This document shows, in pieces, positions 27,560-36,461 of a DNA stretch of 39,377 nt. The stretch spans positions 1 through 39,377 of the forward strand of contig JADFAK010000206.1 of the NCBI GenBank assembly GCA_015665315.1, written 5' to 3'. Position 1 is the stretch's first letter. Every line of letters begins with the position of its first letter. Source of the DNA: Flavobacteriales bacterium (GTDB lineage Bacteria; Bacteroidota; Bacteroidia; Flavobacteriales_D; Sanyastnellaceae). Position numbers and translations under genes: made by a program. Under the pieces are notes generated by a model, which was not told the DNA's origin, made no database searches, and was given only the letters and a program-made list of their open reading frames with translations.

Positions 27560-27636
27560 GGTCTGGTAGTTCAGTTGGTTAGAATACCTGCCTGTCACGC
27601 AGGGGGTCGCGAGTTCGAGTCTCGTCCAGACCGCCA
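27560..27636 (+). tRNA. tRNA-Asp (anticodon GTC)
   Basis: A 77-base cloverleaf. Acceptor GGTCTGG pairs with CCAGACC, the anticodon stem CCTGC/GCAGG encloses loop CTGTCAC (anticodon GTC), and the T-arm is GCGAG-TTCGAGT-CTCGT. The CCA is encoded. The accessory island begins shortly after it, but I find no repeat of its 3' end further right and no integrase, so use as an attachment site is not shown. Confidence 0.95.
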
Positions 27637-27744: not shown

Positions 27745-27840
27745 TTAGGAACAAATACCGGTGACAAAATCAACCACACTCATGTTTGGTTTCTTATTGC
27801 AGTACTAGTTGGATTCTATGAATATTACTCAAACAAGTGC

Positions 27841-29427
27841 TCAACTTTTTTCCAAGTTGTTCCAATCTTTGTAAGCTCCTGATCTAATAGCCTTGAGAGC
27901 TGATCTCTTTCGGTCGATAATAAGCGATATCTCTTGGAAATCGTCAAGTAGTCTTCGGTCAACATCCAGTTTTTTAAATGCTCGGGCAAACTCGGGACTT
28001 CCTCCAGGAACTTGTTTTTCAACGCTTTTAACTGTTTGTTCTCGAAGTTCTTCAAACTGATTTTCAATTCTTTTTCTTGCTCGATCAAGTTCTTCTTCTT
28101 CTTCTCCAATAGACTTAATTTTGGCTGCAGCTTTTTCTTCATAGCTAGCTGCCAAATTTTCAATTGACTGTCGTATTCTTTGTTCAGATTGAAGGTTTTC
28201 CTTTTCAATTCTATTTGTTGTCTCTGTAAAATCTCTTGTGCGGCGTTCTGCAAGTTCAATGTCTTGGTTAATTTGTTCTTGCTCTTGTTCAACTTGTTGT
28301 CTTCTAAGTTCCAAAGTTTCATGATCTTGGTCAAGCTTTTCGATACATTGTCTGATGGCATTGTCAAGATCTTCTTCTTCTGTGACATATTGTTCTCTCT
28401 TGTTAAGATATCTTGTCTCCAAATTTGAAGAGTTTTCTTCATGTTTTCTTTCTTCTCTTTCAAGTCTATCGACCTCTCCTTGATATTGTTTTTCAATTTC
28501 GCTTCTTCGACTTTCTTGTATTCCACTCCATTTGTCCTGATGAGTCTCTGTATTTCCCTCAACTCCTTGTATTTCTGCCCTAAGATGTTCTTCAATTCTT
28601 CTGTAGTGTTCTGACTCAAGACAATTTCTAATTCTTCGTATAAGGTGATTAATTTCAGCTGCTCTGCAGGAGAAAGATTCTTCAAAAAGTCTTTTTTCGT
28701 CGTCTTCAATTTCAGCTGTCTTTCCTGAATCTCCGATGGGAACGTGTACATATTCGGTGTTTTCATAAGTGTTGTTGAATAGCCATTTGGTTCTTGAGTA
28801 TGTGGTGAGCGTTGTTTCTAAATCTCCAGGGCTGGATTTTGGCAAGTCAATTTCTACCGTATCAATACCGAGATATTTTATTTTAGCTAGTTTGTCTGCA
28901 TCGACGGTATGAGTTGCCTTGAATTCGATCAATAAAATAGGATGCCCTTCATTGTTGAAAAATGCTAAATCGGGTTTGATTAATAAGTTTTGTCCTTTAT
29001 AGCCCTTACCCCATTTGACAAGACCTTTGTCGTCTTGAAAGAAATATATTTCTCTACTGACCTTTTGACCGGTAATAAACTTAGCTTCTTCAAGCAAATT
29101 ATAATGGCCGTCAACTCCGCTAGGAGGGAGTTTGTAAACCGGAGGGACAGCGAGTCTTTTTGTTTGAGCTAATTTGTCCTTGACAAATTTGTGTCTGAAT
29201 GTTTCATCTGAATGAGTGCAGGGCTTTTCACCAGGCTTAACGTCTTTCGCGAAATGCCGGAAATACCAATTCTTCTTTGGTTTGTTGCGATGAACTGCGA
29301 TCATTCTCTTTTGGCAACCGATGCAGAAATATTCATTTTCTACTTTCTTTTCGTCGTAGATGAATACTGTATTGCCATTTGTGTCTAAGGCATATAAATG
29401 TTCCCTTTTGTTAGAATCTAAAACCAT
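27841..29427 (-). CDS. CoiA-like nuclease with long C-terminal coiled coil
   Basis: A protein of 528 residues. Residues 1-90 resemble the competence CoiA zinc-finger domain: C35-x2-C38, YFRHFA (55-60), C70/H72 and H79. Residues 145-190 form a PD-(D/E)xK nuclease core with D153 in KPDLAFF and E168-x-K170 in LLIEFKATH. From about 245 to 490 the protein is almost entirely charged coiled coil (Glu, Gln, Arg and Leu heptads). The final 35 residues form a short helical cap. Known CoiA proteins act in natural competence; the coiled-coil fusion and island setting suggest a mobile or defence nuclease. Upstream DNA is AT-rich with no clear -7 box. Confidence 0.7.
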   Translation of the reverse strand: MVLDSNKREHLYALDTNGNTVFIYDEKKVENEYFCIGCQKRMIAVHRNKPKKNWYFRHFAKDVKPGEKPCTHSDETFRHKFVKDKLAQTKRLAVPPVYKLPPSGVDGHYNLLEEAKFITGQKVSREIYFFQDDKGLVKWGKGYKGQNLLIKPDLAFFNNEGHPILLIEFKATHTVDADKLAKIKYLGIDTVEIDLPKSSPGDLETTLTTYSRTKWLFNNTYENTEYVHVPIGDSGKTAEIEDDEKRLFEESFSCRAAEINHLIRRIRNCLESEHYRRIEEHLRAEIQGVEGNTETHQDKWSGIQESRRSEIEKQYQGEVDRLEREERKHEENSSNLETRYLNKREQYVTEEEDLDNAIRQCIEKLDQDHETLELRRQQVEQEQEQINQDIELAERRTRDFTETTNRIEKENLQSEQRIRQSIENLAASYEEKAAAKIKSIGEEEEELDRARKRIENQFEELREQTVKSVEKQVPGGSPEFARAFKKLDVDRRLLDDFQEISLIIDRKRSALKAIRSGAYKDWNNLEKS

Positions 29428-29704: not shown

Positions 29705-30056
29705 ATAAATTCGCGTCTTGAGGCAGGCCTTAAAGCTTTTTTTCTATCACATCATCTAGAACCGTGATATGCAAGGTCTGCTCAGCTATGATCTTCTTGT
29801 ACTGAGCCAGCTCAGCCTCCATTTCTTTGATCTTCTTCAATTGATTTAGCTCCAGTCCACCGTACTTCGTTCGCCAACCGTAGAATGTCGGCTGACTTAT
29901 ACCATGTTCTCGACAGATGTCAGCGATCTTTTTACCCGCTTTCTGCTCGTTCAAAATCTTGATAATCTGTCCTTCTGTGAATCGTGATTTTTTCATCCCA
30001 ATAAATTTAAGTGATTAACTAATTAAATTCACTCCGATTTTTGGGGTAGCATTACA
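29705..30056 (-). mobile_element. IS3-family remnant, copy 1 (left end, orfA, start of orfB)
   Basis: Reads leftward. The terminal sequence at about 30056 (TGTAATGCTACCCCAAAAA in the element's sense) is followed by a complete orfA. At the orfA end an A7G run (reading GAAAAAAAG) is a classical -1 frameshift site; in the -1 frame it continues as KKALRPASRREFI, the expected start of orfB, and then loses homology at about 29705. The element is therefore truncated and has no active transposase. A related, more decayed copy lies at 36457-36680, pointing the other way. Confidence 0.8.
29730..29996 (-). CDS. IS3-family transposase OrfA
   Basis: A protein of 88 residues with an N-terminal helix-turn-helix (SRFTEGQIIKILNEQKAGKK, then ICREHGISQPTFYGWRTKYGG) and a C-terminal leucine-zipper-like helix ending EKKL. 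In intact elements this protein binds the IS ends and is fused to OrfB by frameshifting. OrfB is missing here, so no transposition is expected from this copy. The frame itself is undamaged, suggesting a fairly recent truncation. Confidence 0.88.
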   Translation of the reverse strand: MKKSRFTEGQIIKILNEQKAGKKIADICREHGISQPTFYGWRTKYGGLELNQLKKIKEMEAELAQYKKIIAEQTLHITVLDDVIEKKL

Positions 30057-30616: not shown

Positions 30617-33600
30617 ATGGGTGTAGTGTTTTTAACGGCTGTTACTTACGTGGCGCTTAAAGTGGTAGATCAGTTTATTATAGAAGAAGGCTATGGAAGG
30701 TTCAAAAGGTGGATTTTTCCAAAGCCAACTTATTTGAAGGCCCTTGAAAAGGTAATTTTGGAAACAATTGAAGAGTACGAGCAAAAGTATCCACAAAAGT
30801 CAGCAGGAGATGGAACGTTTCCATTTTACCAATCGCAAGTTGTTCTGGATGTTCTTTCGCGTCATATATTTTTTCGAGATGCAAATTTGAGTCTATTGTC
30901 GAGGGAGTTGGACCTTAACCCTAAAATTATTCCTCCTACAACCGAGCAAATAGAACAGCTGTCTTCTCTATTTATAAGTCATTTAAATAAGAATGATGAT
31001 CTTGAAAAAATGCATGTTGATGAAAATTTCAAAGCTGAAATTTTCGAGATTTCAAAAATATTAGTAGGATTTGAAAAAGATATAAAAACTGTTTCTAGCG
31101 ACACAAAGGACATAAAGAAAATAGTTACGGAGCTAGCGAGACCTGAAAGGAGGTCAATAGAGTCATTTCTAGACAAGGATTTTCTATTTAGGGAAGAGAT
31201 TGAGACAGTATCCTCAAGTTTGGAATTAAGAAATGTTGCTTTGCTTTCAGGAATGTCTTTTTGTGGGAAATCACAGGTAGCCATATTCATGGTTAAACAA
31301 TGTGTTGCTGATGGTTTTGATTTTCAAATTGGGGATGATGTTAATGAAGCCATTAGATATTTGCGTAGTTCCGATAGCCGCAGGTTGTTTCTTCTGGAGG
31401 ATCCCTTTGGTCACATTCCTGGCATCGATGATGCCGCCAGCAAAAAGTGGCTTGAAATATCGAGGTTGATTTCAAGTTTAACAGACAACAAGAAACTTAT
31501 TATCACTTCTAGAACTGATGTTCTATTGATGACTAGAGGAGCGCCTAGCTTGTTAAAATGTAATTTCGGTTCTGACAATTGGTTTGATTTAACAATTAAT
31601 AAAGGCGAAACTCTTAAGGTGATATGGTGCAAGTTGTGCAAGTCGCATAATGTAGATGATTTGGTGAAAAAGAAAATATTGGAATATATAAATGTTGCGA
31701 AAAAAGATGGTTTACTCCAGCCAGGAGAGCTATCGTATTTAGCACAAAATTACGGTAATCTAGATTTGATAAGCAGTGAAAAACTCATTCGATTTGCCCG
31801 AGTTGATTCACATAACATAGCTATGACTTTTCGTAGCCTCAAGGCAGAAATACAAAGAGTGTTTATGTTGCTGGGAATTTGTGCTAGTGCAACACGACCT
31901 GTTCATTTAAAAGAATTGGCTTTCGCCTTACTTGAAATTGATGCCGTTCCTGGGTATAAAGGCTTGAAAGAGACTGAGTTGAAAGTTTATACACTGCGAG
32001 AGCGTGACTCACACAGCTGTACCCCTTTTCCAACTTATCCTGACAATCTATCCTTAGATTTAAGTGCTGAGATCAAAGAATCCCTTGGTTATTTGGAGAA
32101 TTGTGGGTACATCCAAGTTGTTAATTCTACTGTGTGGTTTACTCATCCAACATATTCCGAAGCCTCTAGAATATTGTGTCTCGACCCGTCTTTTGAAAAA
32201 CGTGAGTTTCTTTTAGCTAGTATTCGCAAAATGTTAGGTTCTGTTTCTACTTCGGCTAGTTTCAGATCCTCGAGACAAATTACGTTTATCTACGAGAATA
32301 CTGAAGTGAATGATGTAAAACCGAAATTACTAGAGCTTGCAATTGAAGGTTTTGAGCGGTCGGTCTTTCCTTCGGTGAGGGATGAGTTATTTACTTTCTT
32401 ACTCAAGCATCGATTAGACCTTTCAGGGGACGATAGTAGAAGGTTGCTAAGATATACCGAGTCTGACTCTTCCAATGATGAAATTTGCTGGGAGGGACCT
32501 ACTCCCTATCTTGTTGATGATTTCAAATTCTATGAATTTTCTGATAAATCAGGATGCGACGATCTTGATAAATTAGGTATAGTAGGTCTATTGAATGATA
32601 AGAAGGAAGCCCCAAAGAATCTAGTTTGGGATTATCTTGAATGTTTGAAGAGTGGTTTCACGGATTCTTTGCCTGATCATAATGGGCAAATTCAGATCCT
32701 TTCGTATGAAGAGGCGTTTATTCGAAGCGAGGCGGCATTTGCTCTTACGTCGCGTCAATTTCCTCCAAAGGAAATTTCCGATATCATTTTCAATGATAGT
32801 CATCCTTCTGTCGCGTTTCACGCAATAAAGGGTATGATACAAGGAAGTCCTTTTTATAGTGAGGCCGAGGTCGACCAATGTATTCAATTAATAATTGAGG
32901 CATTGAAAAGGACAGAAGTAATAATAAGAGCCAATAATCTGCTTACTACCTTTGGAATTGGCTATCAAAGTGAAAGCATAGGGTGGTCTTCTTTAAGTGA
33001 TGAAGGCAAGAGTGTTGTATGGAAAGTTTGGGGTTCAATCTTTCCTTTTTTTCTGGATCATTATCCCCCTGAGCTAAGAGTCAGAAATACAGGGAGATTC
33101 GGTTCTACTATAAATTCATCTAAAGCTTATATTAATCCTGATCAGGCTATTAAGATTGCTAATTCATATTTTAATTGGATTGAAAGTATATTGACACAAC
33201 GAGTTCCTGACACTCATGAATTTGCTGTAGTTTCCTATTTGATTGACACTTGCGATAAAGATTCAGCTGTCAGATTAGATCTTTTCAAAAGAATATTTCA
33301 AGTTAAGGATACTTCAATGACTCTGTATTCTCTTTCATGGTCCTTGTCTAGTTGGAACAAGCTATCTGAAAATGAAAAACAATTAATTTTGGATATTCAG
33401 CAGTCGGATCGTATTGATAGACGGTGGATATTGGCGACGATATTAACTGCAACGAAATTGCCGGAAGAAATCACGAACCTTTTATTTGGGAGCCCTAAAT
33501 TCTTAAAATTGCCAGCATCCGATATGGCGAAAGAGTTAGATTCAGAGGGTTATCTCAATGATTCTTTGAGCGTTTTCTGTGGTAAATATTACGAATTTGT

Positions 33601-34321
33601 GGACCTGGGCATTGGCAGGGATGGAGGGGAGAGATGGTTTCCCATATTGGAGTGGATAATTCTCAATGAATACGAAACTGGTTTTGAAATGTCTTTGAAG
33701 ATGTACTTAAGTGAAGGAGTAAATGGCTTTTCTGATAGTTGGGGGAAGGACCCTACAAGGATCTGGAAATCAATATGCGATAAAACGGGAAACTTAGACA
33801 TACTTGCTCAGCTTCTAATCGAGGAAACGGGTAGAAGCAGTTGTGTGATTGCAATTACGAAAGTACTATGGAGTGATCTGCTTGCTGTGTACAAGTTGGT
33901 TAGAAATGAGGAAACCCTTGCAGAATTAATTTTTGCTAAAATTGACTTGCTTCAGATGATGAATCCCGAGGATTTAGTTGAGTTTTTTGGTACGAAGTTT
34001 TTTGTTTCTCATCTAGTTCCTTTGTCAAGTATTGATTTGGCCGCCATGGAGCTTTTTGTTGAGCTTCAGCAATCTAAAAAAGGGGTAGAGGACAAAATAC
34101 CAAATAAGATCACTCAAATATTGCGACTGGCAAAAGATTCAAAACTCACGTTTCACTTTGTTTCCCAACATTTGAAATTGGCAATAGAAACACACAAAAA
34201 TGCAATTCCTGAATTGAATCGATTAGAGTCAATTCTAGGCTATAAGACAATTTCTTTGACGGACTTCGGAATGACTAGCCAATATGAGGATATTGATAAT
34301 TGGATCAAATTGCAACAATGA
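30617..34321 (+). CDS. Large STAND NTPase (nSTAND3-like), putative antiphage defence protein
   Basis: A protein of 1234 residues. The N-terminus (3-22) is a hydrophobic helix, followed by a helical domain to about 180. The NTPase core has a Walker A GMSFCGKS (212-219), a Walker B with the nSTAND3-type LLEDPFG (259-265) and a sensor-1-like KKLIITSRTD (292-301). Residues about 400-550 look like a winged-helix linker, and the rest, about 680 residues, is helical repeat-like, the usual place for ligand sensing. STAND proteins of this class include Avs-type phage sensors. No effector domain is recognisable at the N-terminus. It is AT-richer than the core genes and sits among mobile remnants. Confidence 0.75.
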   Translation: MGVVFLTAVTYVALKVVDQFIIEEGYGRFKRWIFPKPTYLKALEKVILETIEEYEQKYPQKSAGDGTFPFYQSQVVLDVLSRHIFFRDANLSLLSRELDLNPKIIPPTTEQIEQLSSLFISHLNKNDDLEKMHVDENFKAEIFEISKILVGFEKDIKTVSSDTKDIKKIVTELARPERRSIESFLDKDFLFREEIETVSSSLELRNVALLSGMSFCGKSQVAIFMVKQCVADGFDFQIGDDVNEAIRYLRSSDSRRLFLLEDPFGHIPGIDDAASKKWLEISRLISSLTDNKKLIITSRTDVLLMTRGAPSLLKCNFGSDNWFDLTINKGETLKVIWCKLCKSHNVDDLVKKKILEYINVAKKDGLLQPGELSYLAQNYGNLDLISSEKLIRFARVDSHNIAMTFRSLKAEIQRVFMLLGICASATRPVHLKELAFALLEIDAVPGYKGLKETELKVYTLRERDSHSCTPFPTYPDNLSLDLSAEIKESLGYLENCGYIQVVNSTVWFTHPTYSEASRILCLDPSFEKREFLLASIRKMLGSVSTSASFRSSRQITFIYENTEVNDVKPKLLELAIEGFERSVFPSVRDELFTFLLKHRLDLSGDDSRRLLRYTESDSSNDEICWEGPTPYLVDDFKFYEFSDKSGCDDLDKLGIVGLLNDKKEAPKNLVWDYLECLKSGFTDSLPDHNGQIQILSYEEAFIRSEAAFALTSRQFPPKEISDIIFNDSHPSVAFHAIKGMIQGSPFYSEAEVDQCIQLIIEALKRTEVIIRANNLLTTFGIGYQSESIGWSSLSDEGKSVVWKVWGSIFPFFLDHYPPELRVRNTGRFGSTINSSKAYINPDQAIKIANSYFNWIESILTQRVPDTHEFAVVSYLIDTCDKDSAVRLDLFKRIFQVKDTSMTLYSLSWSLSSWNKLSENEKQLILDIQQSDRIDRRWILATILTATKLPEEITNLLFGSPKFLKLPASDMAKELDSEGYLNDSLSVFCGKYYEFVDLGIGRDGGERWFPILEWIILNEYETGFEMSLKMYLSEGVNGFSDSWGKDPTRIWKSICDKTGNLDILAQLLIEETGRSSCVIAITKVLWSDLLAVYKLVRNEETLAELIFAKIDLLQMMNPEDLVEFFGTKFFVSHLVPLSSIDLAAMELFVELQQSKKGVEDKIPNKITQILRLAKDSKLTFHFVSQHLKLAIETHKNAIPELNRLESILGYKTISLTDFGMTSQYEDIDNWIKLQQ

Positions 34322-34696: not shown

Positions 34697-35749
34697 TTAT
34701 AATAGCTTCATTATTTTTTCGATACCCTCGAAATATTTTTTTGCATAAATCAATTCGCTAGGGTGTTCTTTTTTTACAAAATTAATCATTCCTTTGATTT
34801 CTTCAAACAGGGTCTTTTCGCTTGTTTCATTGTCTAGGGTATTGTAAGCTTCACTGATGTTCCAAAAAGTAGCATCAAAATCTGATTCGAAATCCGTAGT
34901 ATATGGTTTGGTTTCAAATAGTAACTGTTCAATAACGGGGTACCTATTACTTTCATTCTCATTAGTAATCATTAAATCAATAGTTACAATGAAGTTTTCA
35001 AACCCCAAATACCCTGAAAATTGCATACCATTATTTGGAGTAATTATTTTATCAAGTAATACTGTTGCGTCATTTCTTGAAAGAGTATCAATTTCTGACA
35101 AGACCACTCCACTATGCTTCTTTTTCAAGGCTTTGTTTCGACTCTTTTGAAACTCTTGGACATTATTTATTTCATTAGAGGACTTGTCATAAATGTTAAT
35201 CATAATTAAATCTCCTTCTTTTGATGCTTCTGCTATACTTTTACCTCTGAGGTACAAGTTACAGGTCGATTTACTACCGATTTGAGAATTATCAGTTACC
35301 CATCCCATAGGAGCCTTTATGGCCAATCCGTTTTTCCCTCTATAGCAAAGGGCATATAAACCTTGATATTCCTTTAATTCTTCAAAGGAACATATTTGAA
35401 GCTCAATGAATCTTGGGTCGTTGTGTGCTCTTTTGTATGCACTTTTAGAGTAACCCTTGTTAGTAATGATTATTGCTCGATCAGCACTAACATCATCTAA
35501 AAAGCCTAAAATTGATTCAATGAGTTTTACGTTGATTTTTTTGTTGTAAAATTTACACTCGACAATTTGTCTGAATTTTCTTCCTCCCGAAAACCCCTCA
35601 ATTAGAACATCTATTTGTCTTTGGCGTTCAGAATATCTTCCTCTTATTCGGAAGTCTCTTTTAACATAAGTACCAGGATGTTGTTCCTTTAGTAGGTGAT
35701 GAATGTTTTCCTCATATTCTTTCCACGGTTTTACTTTTTTTTCCTTCAT
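34697..35749 (-). CDS. Mrr-like restriction endonuclease domain protein
   Basis: A protein of 350 residues. Residues 8-130 are an Mrr-type PD-(D/E)xK nuclease: D47 in RQIDVLIEG, E64-x-K66 in QIVECKFY, and the downstream helix-strand pair ILGFLDDVSADRAIIITNKGYS. The C-terminal 200 residues are a beta-rich region and a helical tail with no recognised family; this is probably the target or partner domain. It is convergent with the nSTAND gene, on the other side of the intron fragment, and may be a separate defence gene or an associated one. No methyltransferase is present in the window. Confidence 0.72.
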   Translation of the reverse strand: MKEKKVKPWKEYEENIHHLLKEQHPGTYVKRDFRIRGRYSERQRQIDVLIEGFSGGRKFRQIVECKFYNKKINVKLIESILGFLDDVSADRAIIITNKGYSKSAYKRAHNDPRFIELQICSFEELKEYQGLYALCYRGKNGLAIKAPMGWVTDNSQIGSKSTCNLYLRGKSIAEASKEGDLIMINIYDKSSNEINNVQEFQKSRNKALKKKHSGVVLSEIDTLSRNDATVLLDKIITPNNGMQFSGYLGFENFIVTIDLMITNENESNRYPVIEQLLFETKPYTTDFESDFDATFWNISEAYNTLDNETSEKTLFEEIKGMINFVKKEHPSELIYAKKYFEGIEKIMKLL

Positions 35750-35810: not shown

Positions 35811-35888
35811 GTGTGCCCAGCAAAGGCATTCTTAAACTAGTCTAAAACTAGTTTATTAATCTAGAGGGTGCAAGTCCCTTAGGCATTG
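35811..35888 (+). mobile_element. Group II intron 5' end (start of domain I)
   Basis: GTGTGCCCAG (35811-35820) is a typical group II intron 5' end. It is followed by the AAACTAG/CTAGTTT hairpin (near 35833-35853) and AGAGGGTGCAAGTCCCTT, a domain I hallmark. The fragment is cut at about 35888 by the IS21 left end. The matching 3' end is not downstream; instead a 3' end lies upstream at 34596-34682, in the same orientation. Confidence 0.78.
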
Positions 35889-36456
35889 GTGGATATATCG
35901 GTCGCCACTATGCCAGGCATTTCGGTGATACTATGCCAAAAATCTATGGCTGGAACACGAATAGACATGCTAGATTTAAGAAAACTACTAACTCTCAAAC
36001 AGAAGGGTTACAGTAACAGACAGGCCGCTGATGCTCTTGGGGTCAATCGGAACACTGTAAATAGCTATATAAACGCGTTAAAAGGGAAACCTTTCGATAA
36101 TCTGCTTAAGCTGAATAACAGTGAATTACGCTCTCTTTTTCCTGAGCGTAATGAGATGAACATGCAGCGCTACGAGGAATTAAGCACCTCCTTTCCATAT
36201 TTCCTTAAAGAGCTTAGGAAACCAGGCTGTACGCTTGACACACTTTGGAAAGAATATAGATCTTCACACCAAAACGGCTATGGATATACCCAATTTGCCC
36301 AACACTTCAAAGACTTTAGACAGGCTCAAAACGGCAGCGGCAAGCTCACGCACATAGCAGGTGAAAAACTCTACATTGACTTCGCTGGAAAGAAGCTTCA
36401 TTATGTAGACAAAAGCACTGGTGAACTAATCCCGGTTGAGGTACCGCCTATGCTAG
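35889..36456 (+). mobile_element. IS21-family left part, truncated
   Basis: Two imperfect direct repeats of about 17 bases (TCGGTCGCCACTATGCCA at 35898 and TCGGTGATACTATGCCA at 35922) are like the multiple repeats at IS21 ends. They precede the 5' part of istA. The right part, with the rest of istA and istB, is absent: the element is broken at about 36440-36456, where the IS3 copy 2 begins. Confidence 0.75.
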
Positions 36457-36461
36457 TGTAA
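35946..36461 (+). pseudogene. istA: Truncated IS21 transposase IstA
   Basis: 171 residues of a family that usually has about 500. It begins MAGTRIDMLDLRKLLTLKQK (ATG 35946; the open frame starts earlier, inside the IS repeats). A helix-turn-helix (GYSNRQAADALGVNRNTVNSY) is followed by the start of the catalytic domain (GEKLYIDFAGKKLHYVDKST). The catalytic DDE residues beyond the first Asp are lost. The stop codon TAA (36459-36461) comes from the terminal TGTAA of the inserted IS3-type end. Confidence 0.85.

Follow-up and report, generated by a model that had tools for sequence, protein, structure and literature searches.

A CoiA-like gene and a helical second gene probably share one stretch of DNA in a family of entangled genes from Bacteroidota

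Long same-strand overlaps of two conserved proteins are familiar in viruses and rarely accepted in cellular genomes. The bacterial precedents, such as comS in srfA and, in phages, Rz/Rz1, are far shorter, and the evidence for a cellular overlap often consists of expression in a single strain. Genes have also been entangled deliberately, by engineering. According to the portions of the literature available to us, many phase-1 overlaps of at least 7 nt have been counted (PMC2542354), pop, antisense to ompA, is a long bacterial overlap of 603 bp (PMC7103648), and only a few long overlapping genes of bacteria are fully established (PMC9927249). CoiA is described, in the accessible text of PMC1189080, as PD-EXQ, with TT1808 (1wdj) among its modelling templates, and a CoiA-domain protein appears among functionally selected anti-phage systems of Escherichia coli in the part of PMC9519451 that was available.

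The window analyzed in this study is a 39,377-nucleotide stretch from a Flavobacteriales bacterium (contig JADFAK010000206.1). It contains gene A (27841..29427, minus strand; 528 aa, ATG start, TGA stop), which combines CCHC residues, a nuclease-like domain and a long helical arm, and which has one match in its own genome. The initial annotation delimited this reading frame exactly; its strand is the minus strand, the plus-strand frame over the same positions having many stops. It overlooked gene B (27825..28766, minus; 313 aa, ATG start, TAA stop), which lies over the coiled coil in the +1 frame of A and is itself conserved. B starts at an ATG inside A (28764..28766, minus), at A residue 221 and shortly past the conserved W215, and stops 16 nt beyond the stop of A; the dual-coding overlap covers 926 nt (27841..28766, minus). 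Judged from sequence comparisons, the locus is in all probability an entangled two-gene unit, in which a CoiA-like A and an almost all-helical B share the DNA of the arm. A/B units form a family of entangled genes, often located on mobile DNA near defence genes. The simple fusion of a nuclease and an arm that had been proposed for this locus is unsupported, because the arm DNA holds two overlapping, separately selected frames.

In A residues 35-70 (29218..29325, minus), the family alignment contains zinc-binding-type CCHC residues, C35, C38, H58 and C70, that are invariant in all 32 family members, window included, which bears out the Cys/His pattern noted at the outset. The nuclease-like fold that follows (residues 75-223; 28759..29205, minus) was delimited by AlphaFold2, structure alignment and conserved residues: E75 and E168 are present in 32 of 32 members and D153 in 31, and T172 and H173 are also conserved. 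The nuclease core suggested earlier, D153 and E168-x-K170, keeps its acidic residues and loses its lysine, since position 170 is occupied by Val in 23 members, His in 5, Ile in 2, Met in 1 and Lys in 1, the last being the window protein. The conserved lysine is K179 (31 of 32), possibly a migrated lysine that replaces the absent canonical lysine of PD-(D/E)xK enzymes. The PD-EXQ active site of CoiA was not seen, as none of the 32 members has Q at position 170.

The Pfam family CoiA_N (PF25164) matches 13 of the 32 A members at E<=0.01 (best 4.9e-8). Window A has no CoiA_N match and only a weak one to DUF7828 (E 0.0023, under the cut-off). CoiA_nuc (PF06054) is absent from the 13 families that any of the 32 members matches in sequence-profile searches at E<=0.01; it is also unmatched in the genome of the window at E<=0.001, with matches in 3 of 14 control genomes. 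The AlphaFold2 model of A (28 rows; mean pLDDT 78, low pTM of 0.39) is confident for a domain spanning about 75-223 and shows residues 273-469 as a helix, in agreement with the long charged arm first described (residues 245-516; 27880..28695, minus), whose DNA would also encode B. Residues 73-224 align mostly with restriction-endonuclease-like folds, including tRNA-splicing endonucleases; the best alignment has Z 6.7 and rmsd 3.0 over 95 aligned residues, where Z<8 may mean a common arrangement only, and that with TT1808 (1wdj) has Z 5.4 and rmsd 3.7 over 96. Foldseek alone, used with the A domain, found nothing at E<=0.001. The modelled fold is consistent with a PD-(D/E)xK nuclease at middling scores, and the original assignment of A to the CoiA type is partly supported, by the CoiA_N matches and this fold and not by PF06054. 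With fold Z<8 and the canonical lysine not conserved, the putative nuclease activity of A is unproven. Matches of window A to the PADLOC and NCBIfam models ZorA, JetC, LmuB and SMC lie on the helical arm and were set aside as coiled-coil background, as were similar arm matches in other members and PDB sequence matches to crescentin and apolipoprotein. A weak DruB1 match was found in 6 of the 32 members.

By tblastn, A has relatives in 16 plasmid records. Among 100 relatives, the weak matches L002 and L003 were discarded, as blastx gave them nothing A-like at 1e-20. An alignment profile built from six A sequences, covering residues 1 to about 299, detected 29 loci in a genome collection, all from Bacteroidota by their record titles, in carriers including Spirosoma, Hymenobacter, Rufibacter, Pontibacter, Saprospiraceae, Prolixibacteraceae and Paludibacter. 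A is sparse, being found in 4 of 395 genomes at the phylum level, that of the window counted. Used alone as a query against genomes and viruses, the window protein gave no match; phage records contained no match to A, and an alignment scan of viral contigs found none. A profile of B, applied to 395 class-level genomes with the best five or fewer candidates per genome scored, matched the 4 A-profile genomes and, weakly and partially, one more (E 9.6e-7, inside a 1116-codon frame). Three loci detected by the A profile in later genomes (L044, L045 and L046) have +1 frames open over 306-339 codons, which the B profile matches at E 1e-62 to 4e-16; as about 80 of the 299 A-profile residues lie in the overlap, this out-of-sample search is not wholly blind to it. 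The trees of the A N-terminus and of B agree (Spearman 0.85). At the sequence level, A and B are clearly found together. Three proteobacterial relatives, L010, L011 and L012, are without the overlap; their +1 frames past codon 220 are interrupted by 19, 3 and 14 stops, respectively, L011 having just 70 codons there.

Gene B was detected when the frames of A and of its homologues on five Bacteroidota plasmids were translated: across the coiled coil, the +1 frame is open in the window and in four of the five. Genome-scan loci showed the same organization: in 27 of 29, a stop-to-stop +1 frame of 312-384 codons opens 475-640 nt into A and ends 7-97 nt after it. These 27 loci, four of the five Bacteroidota plasmid loci and the window make up the 32 pairs analyzed below. 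L037, L041 and L008 were left out, L043 duplicates L033, and L044-L046 served as the out-of-sample check only. The overlap measures 818-1076 nt over the 32 pairs, and the B start codon is ATG in 28, GTG in 3 and ATC in 1 (L033); four starts were assigned manually (the window, L033, L034 and L036). By BLAST, B products are alike between species, except for that of L009, which has no significant similarity to the others. Typical B proteins begin with MSK....TYxFP...QREYHxLMNSK and carry a conserved KIG....F segment at the C-terminus. AlphaFold2 predicts B to be almost all helix (mean pLDDT 85, low pTM of 0.31), and Foldseek returned two matches, neither under E 5.

Several loci deviate from this organization. 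On a plasmid of Spirosoma sp. KNUC1025 (L008:7992-9770), the two frames swap inside the overlap and the annotated ORF joins the A N-terminus to the B C-terminus; this swap is an indel or a sequencing error that leaves both frames open in dual-coding DNA. The Rufibacter sediminis locus (L041:6001-6688) has lost the nuclease core and the B start in a large internal deletion, and both C-terminal frames are still open despite it. L037 is a fragment with an A of only 162 aa, 106 nt from the contig end. In Hymenobacter sp. DG25B (L009:8584-9630), the B-frame ORF (WP_156126522.1) is the one entered in the gene table, A being absent at this place. Among the genes listed, each of the five Bacteroidota plasmid records has one frame, A in four and B in this Hymenobacter.

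Plasmids are among the places where the A/B unit is found, and its surroundings vary: the neighbour cluster seen most widely is present at 5 of 34 loci. Neighbouring genes encode MmeI-type restriction-methylation proteins, RloB and SMODS cyclases, with further matches to the CapP and AriA models. We scanned 109 of 174 candidate neighbours, mostly the two nearest per side, some short ones having been dropped by hand. They matched 289 PADLOC families, compared with 58 in 111 control proteins (of 20 stretches chosen for the control, 16 existed). Several models match one protein and are not independent, and the control set is small and was chosen regardless of mobile context. The neighbourhood survey recommended earlier for defence enrichment shows more matches to defence models near A/B than in this small control, a surplus that is only suggestive of a role in defence. 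On the Fibrella plasmid (L007:1-7947), a Piwi-domain protein, a DEAD helicase, a DNA methyltransferase, an ATPase and RloB lie upstream of A/B.

The unit could instead serve DNA uptake, repair or recombination on mobile elements, the kind of role proposed for CoiA. The CoiA_N matches fit such a role, as do the UmuDC genes that adjoin L005 and the relatives of both near L023 and L039. The initial annotation had named homologues lying only in competence loci as a refutation of its reading; in eight annotated plasmid neighbourhoods (five A/B units and three proteobacterial relatives), no competence gene was present among the genes listed apart from the gene itself, named 'CoiA family' in four of them. 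This, the unmatched PF06054 and the larger number of defence models nearby than in the control make the uptake or repair role unlikely. For the defence role, in which a complex of A and B would act against invading DNA as phage or plasmid defence carried by mobile elements, we consider the chances to be even.

The stretch of the window holding A has a GC content of 0.376, compared with 0.444 in window positions 1-27500, and this low-GC island is bordered by a tRNA-Asp (gtc) gene (27560..27636, +). This tRNA, after which A had been placed, lies beyond the 3' end of A. A 20-base piece of the 3' part of the tRNA, sought as a tRNA-derived repeat, is not repeated elsewhere within the window. Upstream of A, inside the island, is an 88-aa IS3-type HTH ORF (29730-29996, minus), and at the island's far end a 191-aa IS21-like transposase ORF (35886-36461, plus), each below its NCBIfam model cut-off. 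Plasmid carriage in the family supports the mobile nature proposed before. Adjoining the A/B unit is a 1234-aa protein (30617-34321, plus) whose nSTAND3 NTPase domain (Pfam E 3.5e-12) makes it a candidate STAND-type defence sensor; no PADLOC match was found for it at E<=1. In the same island, a 350-aa protein (34697-35749, minus) is possibly a type IV restriction enzyme, given its Mrr catalytic domain (Pfam E 2.4e-9).

The two helical proteins may form an assembly in which B builds or controls the A complex, a proposal to which we give an even chance. The overlap would couple the transcription and dosage of A and B and would hinder their separation through recombination or loss. A more specific version, which we find doubtful, is a fail-safe: a mobile-element nuclease and its controller or neutralizer would share approximately 0.9 kb in two frames and have spread across Bacteroidota, the shared DNA meaning that the nuclease could not be kept without the controller, nor the reverse. 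B could also be an inhibitor of A in an entangled, toxin-antitoxin-like pair, such that damage to the inhibitor also damages the toxin. The co-occurrence of A and B, their carriage on plasmids and the nuclease-like nature of A agree with an inhibitor, but a plain assembly partner is equally compatible with these observations, and we regard inhibition as improbable.

Synonymous change falls at the B start, from 0.46 and 0.51 at offsets -2 and -1 to 0.00, 0.00 and 0.03 at offsets 0, 2 and 3. Codons -3 to -1 are free (0.46-0.53), as are offsets 4 and 5 inside B (0.67 and 0.65); offset -12, upstream of the start, is constrained (0.13). These comparisons establish that the constraint attributable to B begins at an internal ATG or GTG. 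An onset at the start codon together with free codons just before it points to internal initiation and not to frameshifting, and very probably B is translated from the mRNA of A in this way. If instead A ribosomes slipped into the +1 frame, B would not be a separate protein, and a nuclease-B fusion would provide A with two alternative arms. The +1 frame is indeed open some way upstream of the B start, but the freedom of the preceding codons, the onset at ATG or GTG and the situation in L019, where the +1 frame is open just 15 nt before the B start, make slippage very unlikely.

Whether A and B are under separate constraints was examined in the 32 pairs. The +1 frame contains no stop in any of them over 271-357 codons. 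When codons were resampled synonymously with the A protein fixed, none of 2000 trials per gene opened it in any of the 32 genes, and permuting each A gene's own codons opened it in at most 0.2%. Conversely, of 1000 permutations of B per gene, no more than 2 left the A frame open in any of the 32. In eight disjoint pairs, picked among the closest, conserved A residues show synonymous change at 687 of 1298 positions (53%) before B and at 294 of 1544 (19%) inside it (Fisher p about 4e-81; Mantel-Haenszel odds ratio 5.0, stratified by residue). The counts for all 43 pairs with at least 45% identity are 3430 of 6229 and 1546 of 6478, respectively. In the overlap, the substitution rates at the three codon positions move from 0.19/0.12/0.53 to 0.29/0.19/0.25, a pattern that constraint on both frames would produce.

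We also compared proteins with the other frame held fixed. Earlier versions of these tests used hand-chosen sets of 19 and 17 pairs, the latter without L009 and L023, and both tests were therefore repeated with the window against all 31 others. In 28 of 31 comparisons, window B is more similar than the null with A fixed predicts (z>=4); in the remaining three, with a divergent Hymenobacter subgroup (L009, L038 and L040), it has no excess similarity (z 1.3-1.6). The B proteins of this subgroup are alike among themselves (z 15-18) and like that of L036 (z 5.4-8.7), with mixed results for seven other members (z 1.7-7.8). In the reverse test, with B fixed, the similarity of the window A arm lies above the null at z>=4 in 31 of 31 comparisons. 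Codon usage of B is nearer to that of flanking genes in 20 of the 32 pairs (p 0.023, the pairs not being independent). The opposite net charge of the A arm and B was rejected as evidence, as the genetic code alone predicts the same (r -0.35, null -0.39). Taken together, the comparisons demonstrate conservation of, and selection on, both frames. That the B frame is open spuriously, owing to E/Q/K-rich coiled-coil codons, is hardly credible: such codons do lower the number of +1 stops, own-codon permutation giving a mean of only 4-9, and in the three Hymenobacter comparisons window B is no more similar than A forces, but neither explains a stop-free frame in every pair, a conserved start, N-terminus and C-terminus of a B that runs past the A stop, an approximately 5-fold drop in the residue-stratified odds of synonymous change from the B start, or the excess similarity in all other comparisons.

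The preferred reading, two long helical proteins encoded by one DNA sequence, is represented here by a clean case, whose evidence is selection on two frames throughout a family, over roughly 300 codons and with an onset at the second start codon. The plasmid records of A/B show that annotation can miss a 300-residue protein, and the family suggests gene entanglement as a possible means for mobile elements to prevent a nuclease from being parted from its partner. Literature titles and the openings of abstracts, in which subscription literature is thinly covered, contained no earlier description of the A/B overlap that we could find.

Among known proteins, CoiA (COG4469, PF06054/PF25164) resembles A in the Cys/His N-terminal domain, which in A is related to CoiA_N and matched by that model in 13 of 32 members, and the A fold also aligns with 1wdj, a CoiA template in the accessible text of PMC1189080. 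A differs from CoiA in having no match to the CoiA nuclease model, mostly Val at position 170 with K179 as the conserved lysine, a long helical arm with the overlapping gene B, and no competence context seen. The CoiA-like proteins of proteobacterial plasmids (L010, L011 and L012, 'competence protein CoiA family protein') share the N-terminal and nuclease regions, and all three match CoiA_N at E<=0.01, two of them above the cut-off; unlike the A genes of Bacteroidota, they are matched over the N-terminal part only and have stops in the +1 frame. The anti-phage CoiA protein of E. coli, likened to A by description only, places a CoiA domain in phage defence, and an overlapping gene is not mentioned in the part of PMC9519451 available to us. 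CoCoNuT tandems similarly combine coiled coils and nucleases, some in adjacent genes with overlapping frames; however, these are McrBC GTPase systems, and within the accessible portion of PMC11090510 the main text does not mention CoiA and no dual-coding arm was found. As in pop/ompA and other long bacterial overlapping genes, one DNA stretch in A/B would specify two proteins; the A/B overlap differs in being a same-strand +1 overlap of 818-1076 nt, with two-frame selection in many genera. Long overlapping genes are a known kind, of which the A/B pair is a further variant.
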